Origin: Streptosporangiaceae bacterium
GTDB taxonomy: Bacteria; Actinomycetota; Actinomycetes; Streptosporangiales; Streptosporangiaceae
Reading direction: 5' to 3'
NCBI GenBank assembly: GCA_030045295.1
Contig: JASIGD010000233.1
Span: 1-11,971, forward strand
DNA: 11,971 nucleotides
The notes under the pieces were generated by a model. The model made no database searches. It was not told the DNA's origin and saw only the letters and a program-made list of their open reading frames with translations. This document shows, in pieces, positions 5,238 through 10,623 of the stretch. Both the position numbers and the translations under genes were made by a program. The first letter of the stretch is position 1. Each line of letters begins with the position of its first letter.

Positions 5238-6278
5238 TCAGATACCGCGCCGCAGCTTGCGGTGCCACCGCCACCGGTCCTTCACATGACGCACGACAGC
5301 GGACCAGATGAGCGGCTGGAGGTAGGGCATGACACGGTACCCGATCCGCCGCCGCAGCTGCAGGCCACGGAAGACGCCGAGCCGGGCGGCGCCCGGCCAG
5401 CAATCGAACGCGAACGCGACCAGCCCATCGACCGGCACCCGGTTTGTGCGGCCGCGGTCGTAGGCGCGGGTGGCGTTCCACAGAGCCTCCCTGGCCAGCC
5501 GCTTGTGCACGGCGGCGGAGAGTTCGGCCGCATTGGGCAGCGTATCGCCGCATTGTCGGAGGACGCCTTCGAAGGCAGCCCGCATCTGGCTCAGGCTGAC
5601 CAGCGGGTTGCCGAGCTCCAGCGACATGTTCTGGTCGTGCCTGCGGTAGAAGGCCTGATCTGCGCGGATGAAGGCCACGTCGGAGCACGCCGCCAGCCGC
5701 ATCCACATCTCGGCATCGGACGTGTGGTGAAGGTCCGGGTTGTAGCCGCCGACCTGATGCTGGACGGACGTCCGGACCACGACCTCGGGCGAGAAAGTAC
5801 AGGCCGTCGCCTCGCGGAATCGTCGCTCGAGCCACCAGTGACCTGGCCAGATGGCCTGTCCCCGGGACTCCGTCCGGGCGGGCCGCGGCGGCTCACTGCC
5901 GCGGAATTCCACTACGTTGCCGTAGACGAAGCCCACCTCGGGGTGAGCGTCCATGAGGTCGGCGGCCCGGCGCAGGGCGCCTGGCGCCAGCCGGTCGTCC
6001 GCGGATATCAGGACGCAGTAGTCACCGTCGGCCCAATCGAGGACGCCTTCGTTGAAGGTGGCTATGTGGCCCCGGTTCGCCTCGTGTACTCGCACCTCGA
6101 TCCGGTCGTCCGGGGCAGCCAGTTTCTCGGCGATGTCCGCGCTGTCGTCCGTGGAGGCGTCATCGATGATCAGGACCCGGACATCGATGCCGGGCTGGTC
6201 GTCGAGAGCGCCGGCCACGCAGTCGCCGAGGAACTTGCCGTAGTTGTAACAGGGGATGACGACGTCGACCCGGCTCAT
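5238..6278 (-). CDS. Family 2 glycosyltransferase, downstream paralogue (346 aa)
   Basis: A GT-A fold inverting sugar transferase, cytoplasmic or membrane-associated, with no predicted membrane helix. Seen: VDVVIPCYNYGKFL (4-17), LIIDDASTDD (36-45, nucleotide-binding Asp39/Asp40), NRGHIATFNEG (68-78), the DXD-like ISADD (91-95) for metal and nucleotide sugar, and the acceptor-side block HTSDAEMWMRL (185-195) with a probable base at Asp188 or Glu190. YRRHDQNMS (211-219) is a usual GT2 tail motif. The C-terminal 130 residues are basic, with no known domain recognised. It is a paralogue of the glycosyltransferase at 6408-7445: by eye 103 of the first 120 residues match, then identity drops to roughly half. 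Its ATG overlaps the stop of the 33-codon oxidoreductase remnant by four bases (ATGA), and GGGAAGCGGG lies just upstream. The sugar transferred is unknown. Confidence 0.94.
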   Translation of the reverse strand: MSRVDVVIPCYNYGKFLGDCVAGALDDQPGIDVRVLIIDDASTDDSADIAEKLAAPDDRIEVRVHEANRGHIATFNEGVLDWADGDYCVLISADDRLAPGALRRAADLMDAHPEVGFVYGNVVEFRGSEPPRPARTESRGQAIWPGHWWLERRFREATACTFSPEVVVRTSVQHQVGGYNPDLHHTSDAEMWMRLAACSDVAFIRADQAFYRRHDQNMSLELGNPLVSLSQMRAAFEGVLRQCGDTLPNAAELSAAVHKRLAREALWNATRAYDRGRTNRVPVDGLVAFAFDCWPGAARLGVFRGLQLRRRIGYRVMPYLQPLIWSAVVRHVKDRWRWHRKLRRGI

Positions 6279-6376
6279 GTCCCGCTTCCCTGGCCAGCTA
6301 GCGCGCCGACCTGCGACGCGACCCAGGCGCCCGCCGCCGCGATGCCAGTCGGGCTGACGTCGTGCTCAGAAATCAT
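6275..6376 (-). pseudogene. Remnant of a second Gfo/Idh/MocA oxidoreductase gene (33 codons, internally deleted)
   Basis: The sequence between the two glycosyltransferases carries a copy of the start of the oxidoreductase gene at 8554. It encodes MISEHDVSPTGIAAAGA against MISERDVSPIGIAVVGA in the intact gene. About 50 coding bases align with four differences, all transitions; a further 16 upstream bases, including the GGAGTG ribosome-binding site, align with two differences. After codon 16 or 17 the match stops, and the frame continues with unrelated sequence to a TGA overlapping the next glycosyltransferase's ATG by four bases. The intact oxidoreductase overlaps its own glycosyltransferase in the same way (GTGA). 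The simplest reading is duplication of an oxidoreductase-glycosyltransferase unit followed by deletion of nearly all of one oxidoreductase. The remnant may still be translated and couple translation to the next gene. It has no Rossmann fold left, so no enzyme activity is expected. Confidence 0.75.
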
Positions 6377-6407
6377 GACACTCCAGCATCTCTATGTCCG
6401 TCCGGGC

Positions 6408-7445
6408 CTAGGTCCACCTGTCCCTGAGCTGGCGCCTGGACTCGAGCACCTGGCGCGCCAGCAGCCGCGGCCAGACCAGCGGCCGCAGGTACGGCATGAT
6501 GGCGGGCCCGACCCGGCGGCGCCACTGGAGGCTGCGGTAGGTGCCCAGGCTGGCCGCGTCGGGCCAGCAGTCGAACGCGAACGCCTCCAGGTCCTTCACC
6601 GGCACCGTGGCCGTCTGGCCCTGGTCATACGCGCGGGCGGCGACCCAGAAAGCCTCCTTCGCCAGCTCGCGGTGAACCATATCGGAAAGCCTGGCCGCGT
6701 CGGGCAGCACGTCGCCGTAGCGCTTCAGGACGGCCTCATACGCGACCCGCCGCTGCTCGAGGTGCAGCAGGTCGTCGACCACGCCCGACATCTGCTCGGT
6801 GTGCTCGCGTTTGTACGCCTGGTCCGCGAAGACGTATCCGACATCCGCGAACGTGGCCAGCTTCATCCATATCTCGACGTCCGATGTGTGGTACAGATCC
6901 GGGTTGAAGCCGCCCACGCGGTGCACAACGGAGGTCCTCATGACCACCTCGGGTGAGAAGACGCAGGTATGCGCCTCCTTGAAGCGCTGCTCGAGCCATT
7001 GGTGGCCGGACCAGGTCTTCGGGTGGCGGGAGGGCGTCGTCCGGGCGGGCGGCAGCTCCTCGCCGTCGTGGAAGCCCACCACGCCGCCGTAGACGAAGCC
7101 CACCTCGGGCCGCGCGTCCATGAGGTCGGCGGCCCGGCGCAGCGCTCCGGGGGTGAGCTTGTCGTCCGCGGAGATCAGCACGCAGTAATCTGCGTCCGCC
7201 CAGTCGAGCACGCCCTCGTTGAATGTGGCGATATGGCCCCGGTTGACGGGATGGACGATCACGCTGACCCGGTCGTCGGCGGCCGCGAGCTTCTGCGCGA
7301 TCTCCGCGCTGTCGTCCTGGGACGCGTCGTCGATGATCAGGACCCGGACGTCGGTGCCGGGCTGGTCGTCGAGAGCGCCGGCCACGCAGTCACCGAGGAA
7401 TCTGCCGAAGTTATAGCACGGGACGACGACGTCGACGCGGCTCAC
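6408..7445 (-). CDS. Family 2 glycosyltransferase, upstream paralogue (345 aa)
   Basis: A GT-A type sugar transferase, likely adding one residue to the lipid-linked glycan of this locus. Seen: VDVVVPCYNFGRFL (4-17), LIIDDASQDD (36-45), NRGHIATFNEG (68-78), DXD-like ISADD (91-95), FSPEVVMRTS (163-172), and HTSDVEIWMKL (186-196) as the acceptor-side block. The C-terminal segment RSLQWRRRVG...MPYLRPLVW parallels the same stretch in the paralogue at 5238-6278. Differences gather after residue 120: the paralogue has YRRHDQNMS where this one has YKREHTEQMS. That suggests the donor side is shared and the acceptor or linkage differs. The start is GTG at 7445, overlapping the oxidoreductase TGA by four bases (GTGA), so the two are probably translationally coupled. 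A 31-base gap separates its TAG stop from the remnant start. Confidence 0.94.
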   Translation of the reverse strand: MSRVDVVVPCYNFGRFLGDCVAGALDDQPGTDVRVLIIDDASQDDSAEIAQKLAAADDRVSVIVHPVNRGHIATFNEGVLDWADADYCVLISADDKLTPGALRRAADLMDARPEVGFVYGGVVGFHDGEELPPARTTPSRHPKTWSGHQWLEQRFKEAHTCVFSPEVVMRTSVVHRVGGFNPDLYHTSDVEIWMKLATFADVGYVFADQAYKREHTEQMSGVVDDLLHLEQRRVAYEAVLKRYGDVLPDAARLSDMVHRELAKEAFWVAARAYDQGQTATVPVKDLEAFAFDCWPDAASLGTYRSLQWRRRVGPAIMPYLRPLVWPRLLARQVLESRRQLRDRWT

Positions 7446-8554
7446 TTCGCACTCCTCCCGCCGAACACCGCGGGAGCTGACGCAACCCGATCCGGCTGGA
7501 TTCCGCGCAGCGCCACCGGGGCTCCCTGCAGCGCGATGCTGCGCGACGCCGCCTCGAGGATGTCAAGGACACGCAGGCCGGAGCGCCCGTCGGTGAGTGA
7601 CGCGCGGCCGGTGCGGATGCAGTCCGCGAACTCCTCGACCATGCTGGCCAGTGCCTCGCAATCATTGAGCGCCGGCGACACGAGGTCACCGGTCCGGTAC
7701 AAGACGGACGCCTTCTGGCGGTCCTCGGCCCCGGCCTCCTGCGCTGGCACCAGGTCCACGCCTCGGTCGAAGACGGTTACCCGCTGCAGCGGATTGAGGT
7801 CATCCCACAGCAAGGCCCGCTTGGATCCGCCGATCATCGTGGTCCGGACCTTGGTGGGCGACAGCCAGTTGACGTGAAAATGAGCGATCGCCCCGCCCGT
7901 CAGCTGAATTGTCACGAAGGCGACGCAGGACCGGCCGGCACCGATCGGGTCCGCCCCGTGGGTCGCGACCGACAGCGGCTCGACCCCCGGAGGAAGGATT
8001 GACGTCAGGATGGAGATGTCATGTGGGGCAAGATCCCACAGTACGTCGATGTCGGGCTGCACCAGGCCCAGGTTGATCCGCACCGAGTCGAAGTAGTGCA
8101 GGTCGCCGATCTCGCCCGAGTGCACCAGCTCCCGGATCTTGCGAACGGCCGGGGTGTAGCAGAAGGTGTGATCGCACATGAGCACCAGGCCAGCGCGATC
8201 CGCCTCCTCGACCAGGCGGAGCCCGTCGGCGTAGGTGGCGGCCAGCGGCTTCTCGATGAGCACGTGCTTGCCAGCGCGCATAGCCGCGAGCGCTATGTCC
8301 CGGTGGGTGGCAGCCGGAGTCGCGATGGCGACGGCGTCGACCCGCTCATCGGCCAGCACGACGCCCAGGTCATCGGTCGCGCCGACGGTCGAATACGGCC
8401 CGAGCACCTGGACCGCGCGGGACTTGTCGATGTCGCACAGCCAGGCAAGGCGATACTGCGACGAGCCGGCGAAGTTCCGCACCAGGTTCGGCCCCCAGTA
8501 GCCCGCGCCCACCACCGCGATGCCAATCGGGCTGACGTCGCGCTCAGAAATCAT
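7442..8554 (-). CDS. Gfo/Idh/MocA-family NAD(P)-dependent sugar oxidoreductase (370 aa)
   Basis: Predicted to oxidise or reduce a hydroxyl/keto group of a nucleotide sugar, using bound NAD(P). Seen: Rossmann motif VVGAGYWG (14-21), AIATPAATH (76-84), the catalytic-lysine motif EKP (101-103, Lys102), DHTFCYTP (128-135), and WDLAPHDI (173-180) with the likely acid/base His178. Length is normal. The GAGYWGPNLVRNF start is common in glycan-locus members, including 3-dehydrogenases of the WlbA/WbpB type. In those pathways an oxidised sugar passes to a DegT aminotransferase; two are present nearby, but the N-acetyltransferase of the pathway is not in the window. The ATG at 8554 has GGAG four bases upstream. 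It is the first gene of the long minus-strand run and faces the flippase across a 356-base divergent region. An internally deleted second copy lies at 6275-6376. Confidence 0.94.
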   Translation of the reverse strand: MISERDVSPIGIAVVGAGYWGPNLVRNFAGSSQYRLAWLCDIDKSRAVQVLGPYSTVGATDDLGVVLADERVDAVAIATPAATHRDIALAAMRAGKHVLIEKPLAATYADGLRLVEEADRAGLVLMCDHTFCYTPAVRKIRELVHSGEIGDLHYFDSVRINLGLVQPDIDVLWDLAPHDISILTSILPPGVEPLSVATHGADPIGAGRSCVAFVTIQLTGGAIAHFHVNWLSPTKVRTTMIGGSKRALLWDDLNPLQRVTVFDRGVDLVPAQEAGAEDRQKASVLYRTGDLVSPALNDCEALASMVEEFADCIRTGRASLTDGRSGLRVLDILEAASRSIALQGAPVALRGIQPDRVASAPAVFGGRSAK

Positions 8555-8641
8555 GGCACTCCCGCATGGTTACGGCGTCGTCAAGCTGCGCCGTCGTAAT
8601 CTTCACCCGGCCACCTGCGGGCCGACAGCAACTCGGCACAC

Positions 8642-8910: not shown

Positions 8911-10623
8911 GTGAAGTCGGGACCGCCTAGGGCTACTGGGAAACCCATGCAGCCTGCCGGCACCTACGACTACTGGGTCGACGACAGGCTCACGATCCCC
9001 TTGCCGGGCGCCGACGGGGGTCCCATCATGCCTGGCCCAGAGCCCCAGACTCCTCGCCCTGCGCCGGTCCCTGAAGCCCTGAACCCGGTCGCCCGCGTTT
9101 TCTCAGCGCTGCGCGACCCCGCTTACCGCGGCAGTTACGCCCTGGTCGCGAACACGCTAGGGACAAACCTCATCGGCGCGGCTTACTGGGCTGTCGCGGC
9201 CCGCCTGTTCAGTCCCGAGGCCCTGGGCCGCGCCACGGCACTGATCTCCGGGCTGATGCTCGTGGCCACCCTCTCCCAGCTCAATCTGGGCAACACGCTG
9301 ATGCGGTTCCTGCCTCAGATGGGGGCGATATCGGCGGGACGCCTGATCATATTCAGCTATCTGGCGACTTCGCTGACGGCTCTGGCCGGGAGCGTGATAT
9401 TTGTCACCGTCCTGCCCAGACTCAGCTCCGAATGGCATTTCCTGGGCGGTTCGGTCTTTCTTGCCGTCCTCTTCGTAGTGTCAGTTGTCGTCTGGGAGAT
9501 ATTTACCCTGCAGGATACGGCGCTTGTCGGTCTCCAGCATGCCGTTGTCGTCCCGGTGGAAAATGTGATCTACGCCTTGGCGAAGCTGGCCCTGCTGGTG
9601 GTAGGAGTAGAGCTGCTCGGCTCGACAGACATCCTCGTGTCCTGGATGAGCCCGCTGATCTTTTTGATCCCGATCATTAACTGGATGATCTTCCGATACC
9701 TCAAGGACCGCGACCCACGCGACACGGTCCCGGGGATGCGGGTTCGCCACTTCGCGCGTTTTGCCTCCGTCGACTATCTGGGCGTGATCTGCAGTCAGGT
9801 CACCGCGAACGCACTCCCGCTGCTGGTAATAACCGTCCTCGGACCCGCAGCTACGGCCAGCTTCTACATCGCCAGCTTGATTACGTCCGGCGTGGCAGCC
9901 CTGGGAATAAGTTTTTCGACCGGCCTGCTCGTCGAAGCCTCCGCGGCACCTGACCGGCTGCAAGAACTCACCCTCGGCGCGCTTAAGAGGTGCGCGCTTG
10001 TCATGATACCGGCGACGATTGTACTGGTATTCGGAGCACCGCTCATCCTGAGGATTTACGGGGGCAGCTACGTCGCCAGCACGGTCGTGCTCTTCCAGCT
10101 GCTGGCCCTGACCCTCCTTCCCTTCTGCATCTCGACCATCGCTTTCTCGCTCGACCGTATCGCTCGCAAGCCCATTCGTGCGACGCTGACTCAGCTCGCT
10201 AATTCCGTTCTCGTCCTCGGCGGCTGCTGGCTGTTGTTCGGGCGGCTCGGACTCAACGGGGTAGGCGTCGCGTGCATCGTGGCCGATACTTTCATAGCAG
10301 TCGTGCGCCTTCCTACGGTCCTGGGCGCCCTCCGGCGGCGCCCTGGTGCGATAGCACGGCCGACCAGTGCACCGCGGCAGGTCGCAGCGCCGGATTCCCC
10401 CGCTCCCGCCCGCTCGGACCGGCTCTCCAGCCGCCGGGGCTACGTAGGCCGTCACCGGGCCACAGGGCAGGGCGGGAACTCCTCATCGGGCAGGCATCAG
10501 CAAGAGCCCGCAACAGACCGGCACCAGCAAGGACCCGAGCGGCGTCCGGTAAACGGGCGCGAGGCGTACCCGTTCCAGCGGGCACAAGGCAACGGCGAGT
10601 ATCGCCGACCGGACAAGGTCTGA
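8911..10623 (+). CDS. Polysaccharide flippase, Wzx/MOP-superfamily membrane protein (570 aa)
   Basis: Integral membrane protein expected to move the lipid-linked oligosaccharide from the inner to the outer face of the plasma membrane. About 12 hydrophobic segments can be traced, near residues 76-99, 107-126, 144-166, 179-199, 210-233, 243-263, 285-308, 313-336, 360-380, 391-411, 425-445 and 447-467. The NTLGTNLIGAAYWAVAARLF opening and SPEALGRATAL are typical of the family. Two extensions are unusual: a proline-rich N-terminus of about 65 residues and a hydrophilic C-terminus (about 472-570) rich in Arg, Gln, Ser and Pro, probably disordered. The GTG at 8911 is used because a -10 is placed for leaderless transcription. 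The ATG at 8947 (558 residues) is the main alternative. It is the only plus-strand gene, divergent from the glycan operon and ending 28 bases from the convergent aminotransferase. Confidence 0.9.
   Translation: MKSGPPRATGKPMQPAGTYDYWVDDRLTIPLPGADGGPIMPGPEPQTPRPAPVPEALNPVARVFSALRDPAYRGSYALVANTLGTNLIGAAYWAVAARLFSPEALGRATALISGLMLVATLSQLNLGNTLMRFLPQMGAISAGRLIIFSYLATSLTALAGSVIFVTVLPRLSSEWHFLGGSVFLAVLFVVSVVVWEIFTLQDTALVGLQHAVVVPVENVIYALAKLALLVVGVELLGSTDILVSWMSPLIFLIPIINWMIFRYLKDRDPRDTVPGMRVRHFARFASVDYLGVICSQVTANALPLLVITVLGPAATASFYIASLITSGVAALGISFSTGLLVEASAAPDRLQELTLGALKRCALVMIPATIVLVFGAPLILRIYGGSYVASTVVLFQLLALTLLPFCISTIAFSLDRIARKPIRATLTQLANSVLVLGGCWLLFGRLGLNGVGVACIVADTFIAVVRLPTVLGALRRRPGAIARPTSAPRQVAAPDSPAPARSDRLSSRRGYVGRHRATGQGGNSSSGRHQQEPATDRHQQGPERRPVNGREAYPFQRAQGNGEYRRPDKV

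Follow-up and report, generated by a model that had tools for sequence, protein, structure and literature searches.

Gene organisation of the locus

The window, i.e., the whole stretch of 11,971 nucleotides that was analysed, carries, around the segment considered here, a row of genes for amino sugars and glycosyl transfer on the minus strand. Read along the minus strand, the row consists of an oxidoreductase gene (OR), a glycosyltransferase gene (GT2), 31 bases, a frame of 33 codons, a further glycosyltransferase gene (GT1), an epimerase/dehydratase gene, and a DegT aminotransferase gene. The intact OR (7442..8554, minus strand) encodes a Gfo/Idh/MocA oxidoreductase of 370 aa (Pfam PF01408, PF22725, and PF02894), and its end is joined by a GTGA overlap to the start of GT2 (6408..7445, minus strand), a family 2 glycosyltransferase (PF00535). 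GT1 (5238..6278, minus strand; PF00535) is a family 2 glycosyltransferase paralogous to GT2. The 33-codon frame located just before it, named here the stub (MISEHDVSPTGIAAAGAWVASQVGALAGQGSGT, followed by the stop codon TGA; 6275..6376, minus strand), begins with the ATG at 6376 and runs, as the preliminary description of this DNA had stated, to a TGA (6277-6275) overlapping the ATG of GT1 (6278-6276), which gives an ATGA overlap at 6275..6278 of the minus strand. The catalytic body of an oxidoreductase is absent from the stub, which thus encodes no enzyme, the Pfam domains of the 370-aa OR extending over residues 11-348.

The closest named relative of the glycosyltransferases among the matches listed is P0018, from a Streptosporangiaceae MAG, which is 74% identical to GT1. 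DNA searches of genome contigs, viral contigs, and whole genomes gave no glycosyltransferase nearer to GT1 than about 65% across its length; the genome-contig search for close relatives covered the best 80 of 465 matches, the whole-genome searches covered 6, 297, 200, 345, and 394 genomes in partly overlapping sets with strict E-value limits, and the class-wide genome search, which was empty, lacked a positive control for the threshold used.

The best models for the acyl-CoA dehydrogenase at 637-1794 are of the PigA/RedW type, the PigA model scoring 438 bits, under its cut-off of 500, and an adenylation-domain protein at 2-598, cut by the window edge, adjoins it. From these two neighbours, the cluster may be one in which a pyrrole-type acyl group is attached to an amino sugar. 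On the plus strand, 8911-10623 encodes a 570-aa protein that is flippase-like by eye and has no match in Pfam or NCBIfam.

Both ends of the stub match oxidoreductase genes

The 5′ segment of the stub (6327..6389, minus strand), including a GGAG motif resembling a ribosome-binding site before the ATG, has its counterpart at the start of the intact OR (8505..8567, minus strand). A repeat of the OR start region with roughly six differences had been noticed by eye, and the alignment of 6389-6327 with 8567-8505 confirmed it, with 57 of 63 bases identical, exactly six differences, and no gap. The match scored 96, far above 500 dinucleotide shuffles (mean 22, maximum 37). It spans 13 bases ahead of the ATG, with two differences, and 16 codons, with four, all of them at second codon positions. 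The third codon positions are identical in 16 of 16 codons, among them ATT and TCT, two codons seldom used in nine genes of the window, the OR's own included (14 and 2 of 3383 codons, respectively). When third positions were compared with those of the window's OR start, the starts of six distinct ORs in fetched loci agreed at only two to three of eight, whereas the stub agreed at eight of eight. Since the third positions all agree, unlike those of the OR starts in the fetched loci, the stub start was, as far as can be judged from the alignment, either copied from the OR lineage of the window, or homogenised with it, or constrained.

The preliminary description held that the match stops after about 16 codons, before codons 17-33 (AWVASQVGALAGQGSGT; 6278..6328, minus strand). 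This is correct with respect to the OR of the window, as the DNA of codons 17-33 is no more similar to the tail of that gene than shuffled sequence (397 of 1000 shuffles were as good), but not with respect to its relatives. When the best 120 of 7999 OR relatives from the protein database were compared, codons 17-33 matched their C-terminal tails in the same frame and with the same stop, so the remnant is more than a start followed by unrelated sequence. The best local score of the tail, 46, was equalled by 1 of 500 shuffles, and its mean right-justified score against 120 OR tails, 1.86, was reached by 2 of 5000 (shuffle mean −9.5, sd 3.5); scores in the remaining five frames lie between −4 and −16, compared to +1.9 for the stub frame. 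The resemblance can be seen by setting the tails of P0121 (DRDASPVGGPVGQGSGT), P0183 (DWAAFPVGGLVDQGSGI), and P0162 (SPVASPVPELAGQGSRT) against that of the stub. Free local alignment took the tail to the OR C-terminus for 27 of the 40 best ORs and for 35 of all 121, a low fraction because OR tails vary greatly. A null made of real sequences, consisting of 57 distinct peptides upstream of GT starts in the fetched loci and taken in the same way as the stub's tail, gave a similar result: none of the 57 reached the mean score of the stub, and the one that reached its best score, from L101, is itself the tail of a genuine OR. Among the 120 OR tails proper, 70 outscore the stub in mean and the remainder do not, so that the stub scores as an ordinary member of the family. 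By these comparisons, the link of codons 17-33 to the OR runs via the proteins of relatives rather than via the window's own OR.

Homology to ORs is present at both ends of the stub, its frame is open, and its stop overlaps the GT1 start. With the 5′ end matching the OR start and codons 17-33 matching OR tails, the frame fuses both ends of an OR gene, i.e., it is, on this evidence, composed of the N-terminal 16 and about 16 C-terminal OR codons, joined by an in-frame internal deletion with loss of about 1.01 kb. Measured against the window's own OR, 1011 bases are missing; the number would be about 1014 if the parent gene had the usual longer tail.

The parent gene itself can be considered in the light of P0183. 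Among the best 120 of 7999 ORs, this protein is the top match of the stub tail and, behind the window's OR, of the stub N-terminus; it also has in common with the stub a short N-terminus and His5. P0183 lacks 16 residues within a conserved part of the protein and P0188 lacks 23, both as clean in-frame internal losses, and internal core gaps of four or more occur in these two alone among 121 aligned ORs. Either the decay of second copies or errors of assembly may lie behind these losses. A quick OR tree of 76 rows, with 75 of the 120 ORs listed, gave no clear position for the window's OR, and a segment-by-segment comparison of its nearest relatives gave no clear mosaic.

The oxidoreductase-glycosyltransferase pair and the age of its proposed duplication

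The position of the stub before GT1, as of the OR before GT2, raises the question whether the two genes form a unit. This is supported by the locus L121 (genome G175), in which a single OR, 80% identical, precedes a single GT and overlaps it by ATGA, and by the database matches, where 18 of the 117 listed ORs with a contig agree with one of 152 listed GTs in contig size and source. P0050 and P0103 (contig size 2623, with a common source) may be a pair of this kind. In the control, contig-size offsets of 1 to 5 gave zero or one OR/GT pair each, and equal contig sizes without a common source (2051, 1329, and 7053) were counted as coincidence. The GTs paired with an OR occur in both the GT1 clade (P0007, P0011, P0012, and P0023) and the GT2 clade (P0032 and P0035). 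The available sequences thus support the OR-GT pair as a recurring two-gene unit. No contig with two full ORs appeared in these lists. No two of the listed ORs agree in both contig size and source, which is weak counter-evidence to two-OR loci because only the longest contig per cluster is shown.

Two further GTs of the family, P0014 and P0026, have the same contig size (296491) and sources and are probably encoded together on a single contig of a different organism. In the quick GT tree, P0026 groups within the clade of GT2. P0014 resembles GT1 in its C-terminus and is 75% identical to GT1 and 69% to GT2; since the tree sets it outside the GT1 clade, beside that of GT2 (support 83), it may be the product of a separate duplication.

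The GT1 and GT2 proteins are 67% identical and fall into separate clades of 18 and 17 rows (SH-aLRT 95 and 97) in the quick tree, built from 62 GTs, i.e., a hand-chosen 60 of the 120 listed and the two of the window. Their third codon positions are 61% identical over the full length and 80% identical in the first 40 aligned codons, which is perhaps a trace of gene conversion. At a rate of 61%, the 16 of 16 agreement of the OR starts has a chance of about 4 in 10,000 (by hand arithmetic, taking positions as independent), and at 80% the chance is about 3% (likewise by hand). As third positions of the GTs are far more diverged than those of the OR starts, the history is, on this comparison, more than one simple recent duplication, GT1 and GT2 being old paralogues. 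The mismatch in timing could result from gene conversion of the ORs after the GT split, from a constrained initiation region, or from a later partial duplication. Of the earlier proposal that a two-gene unit was duplicated and one copy almost completely lost, the recurring OR-GT pair and the remains of the OR stand, whereas a single simple duplication does not.

Origin of the stub

The most likely origin of the segment, at a probability of about 0.85, is a duplicate copy of the upstream Gfo/Idh/MocA oxidoreductase gene that has lost its interior; the fossil of a second oxidoreductase suggested in the preliminary description is upheld by the match of both stub ends to ORs. In the proposed history, the OR-GT pair would have been present twice in tandem, as OR-GT2-OR′-GT1 with two full ORs. 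The two GTs would have diverged and both been kept. Both ORs presumably made the same product, which would have rendered one of them dispensable. Gene conversion between the OR starts would have preceded the loss, and the body of OR′ would then have been deleted (some 338 codons, about 1.01 kb), so that the ribosome-binding site, ATG, and 16 codons of this gene came to be joined in frame to its last approximately 16 codons and its stop. Internally deleted pseudogenes of tandem duplicates in bacterial operons are a known sort of gene remnant. The stub resembles them in that the two ends of the parent are in place and in order, the body is gone, and an intact paralogue is close by; it differs in that its frame is open from start to stop, which makes it also a small ORF. 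It is, in this respect, an ordinary kind of gene fossil whose sole unusual feature is the frame still open.

The stub has very high identity to the OR over the 63 bases of its 5′ segment and low identity in its tail, and GT1 and GT2 are old paralogues, from which it follows that the two ends of the stub may differ in age. This would fit a partial duplication, or insertion scar, in which just the 5′ end of the OR was copied before GT1 during the rearrangement that brought OR-GT2, the tail being the remainder of an older OR′ cut by that rearrangement; a second full OR with such a start would then never have existed. We regard this as unlikely. The short N-terminus with His5 occurs in P0183 together with the tail type of the stub, so a single parent gene can supply both stub ends, and the C-termini of GT2 and GT1 resemble those of their relatives, hence no truncation is visible at the junctions. 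The junction itself is known from this contig alone, which leaves room for chance similarity or an assembly artefact, but the height of the 5′ match over shuffles and the joining of two ends in frame and in the right order make this very improbable. GT2 also occurs without any difference as P0053 in another record, and P0001, again from another record, shares 97% identity with GT1, although neither shows the junction.

Whether an internally deleted duplicate of this kind also has a function is a separate issue, and in an addition to the preferred reading, selection would keep the stub as a short upstream frame loading ribosomes onto GT1, the deletion having been tolerated solely for being in frame. 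The start, GGAG motif, frame, stop, and overlap are all intact, and the change of four second positions and no third is as expected for a constrained initiation region and an unconstrained peptide. The clean in-frame internal losses of P0183 and P0188, 2 of 121 ORs, also point in this direction. Coupling by termination-reinitiation is reported as strict in 13 of 14 overlapping pairs tested (PMC6728339), so a stub with a ribosome-binding site, a start, and an overlapping stop could couple to GT1, and iraD is described as controlled by a short ORF that overlaps the next start with its stop codon (PMC5574718). As in the ATGA-type pairs of the first report, the upstream stop overlaps the downstream start, but the upstream frame here is a 33-codon stub known from sequence alone. 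The upstream ORF of iraD is likewise short with an overlapping stop; its coupling and control by CsrA are presented as proven by experiment (PMC5574718), while the ORF described here is a gene remnant. Translational coupling of the stub to GT1 is plausible, and there are about even odds that the stub would still be translated and hand ribosomes to GT1 by termination-reinitiation, as would a full OR. However, the retention of the stub is perhaps mere youth, a deletion is in frame by chance about one time in three, and the all-nonsynonymous pattern among four coding changes arises by chance about as often (hand estimate). The ATGA overlap is weak, unspecific evidence, because GT1 begins with Met-Ser (ATG AGC), as GTs of this family often do, and such a start writes ATGA automatically; of 85 GT starts inspected, with some loci entering twice, 71 read NTGA, many of these without a long upstream frame. 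Pairing energies with the 16S rRNA end did not set starts apart from the background (mean −5.0, sd 2.9) in a table of nine rows, two of which (DegT1 and ACAD) were off the true start codons. Selection for a coupling function is considered possible, with the odds somewhat against it.

A wider version of this proposal, in which redundant ORs in tandem OR-GT clusters would be worn down by successive in-frame deletions to a minimal coupler gene (16 residues lost in P0183, 23 in P0188, and about 338 in the stub), the frame and not the enzyme being needed for coupling translation to the glycosyltransferase, is quite doubtful. Among the papers listed, judged by titles and abstract openings, no in-frame remnant of a duplicate acting as a coupler was found. 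An RNA element in the segment was ruled out, its folding being no better than that of shuffles (z +1.17).

Implications for gene loss in operons

The case shows, in the reading of an internally deleted duplicate, how a two-gene unit was duplicated and then lost in part, where the glycosyltransferases diverge and stay and the presumably common oxidoreductase is reduced to its translation signals. On its own, the case is ordinary genome evolution. If many such stubs turned out to be in frame, they would reveal how operon coupling influences which remnants of dead genes persist.
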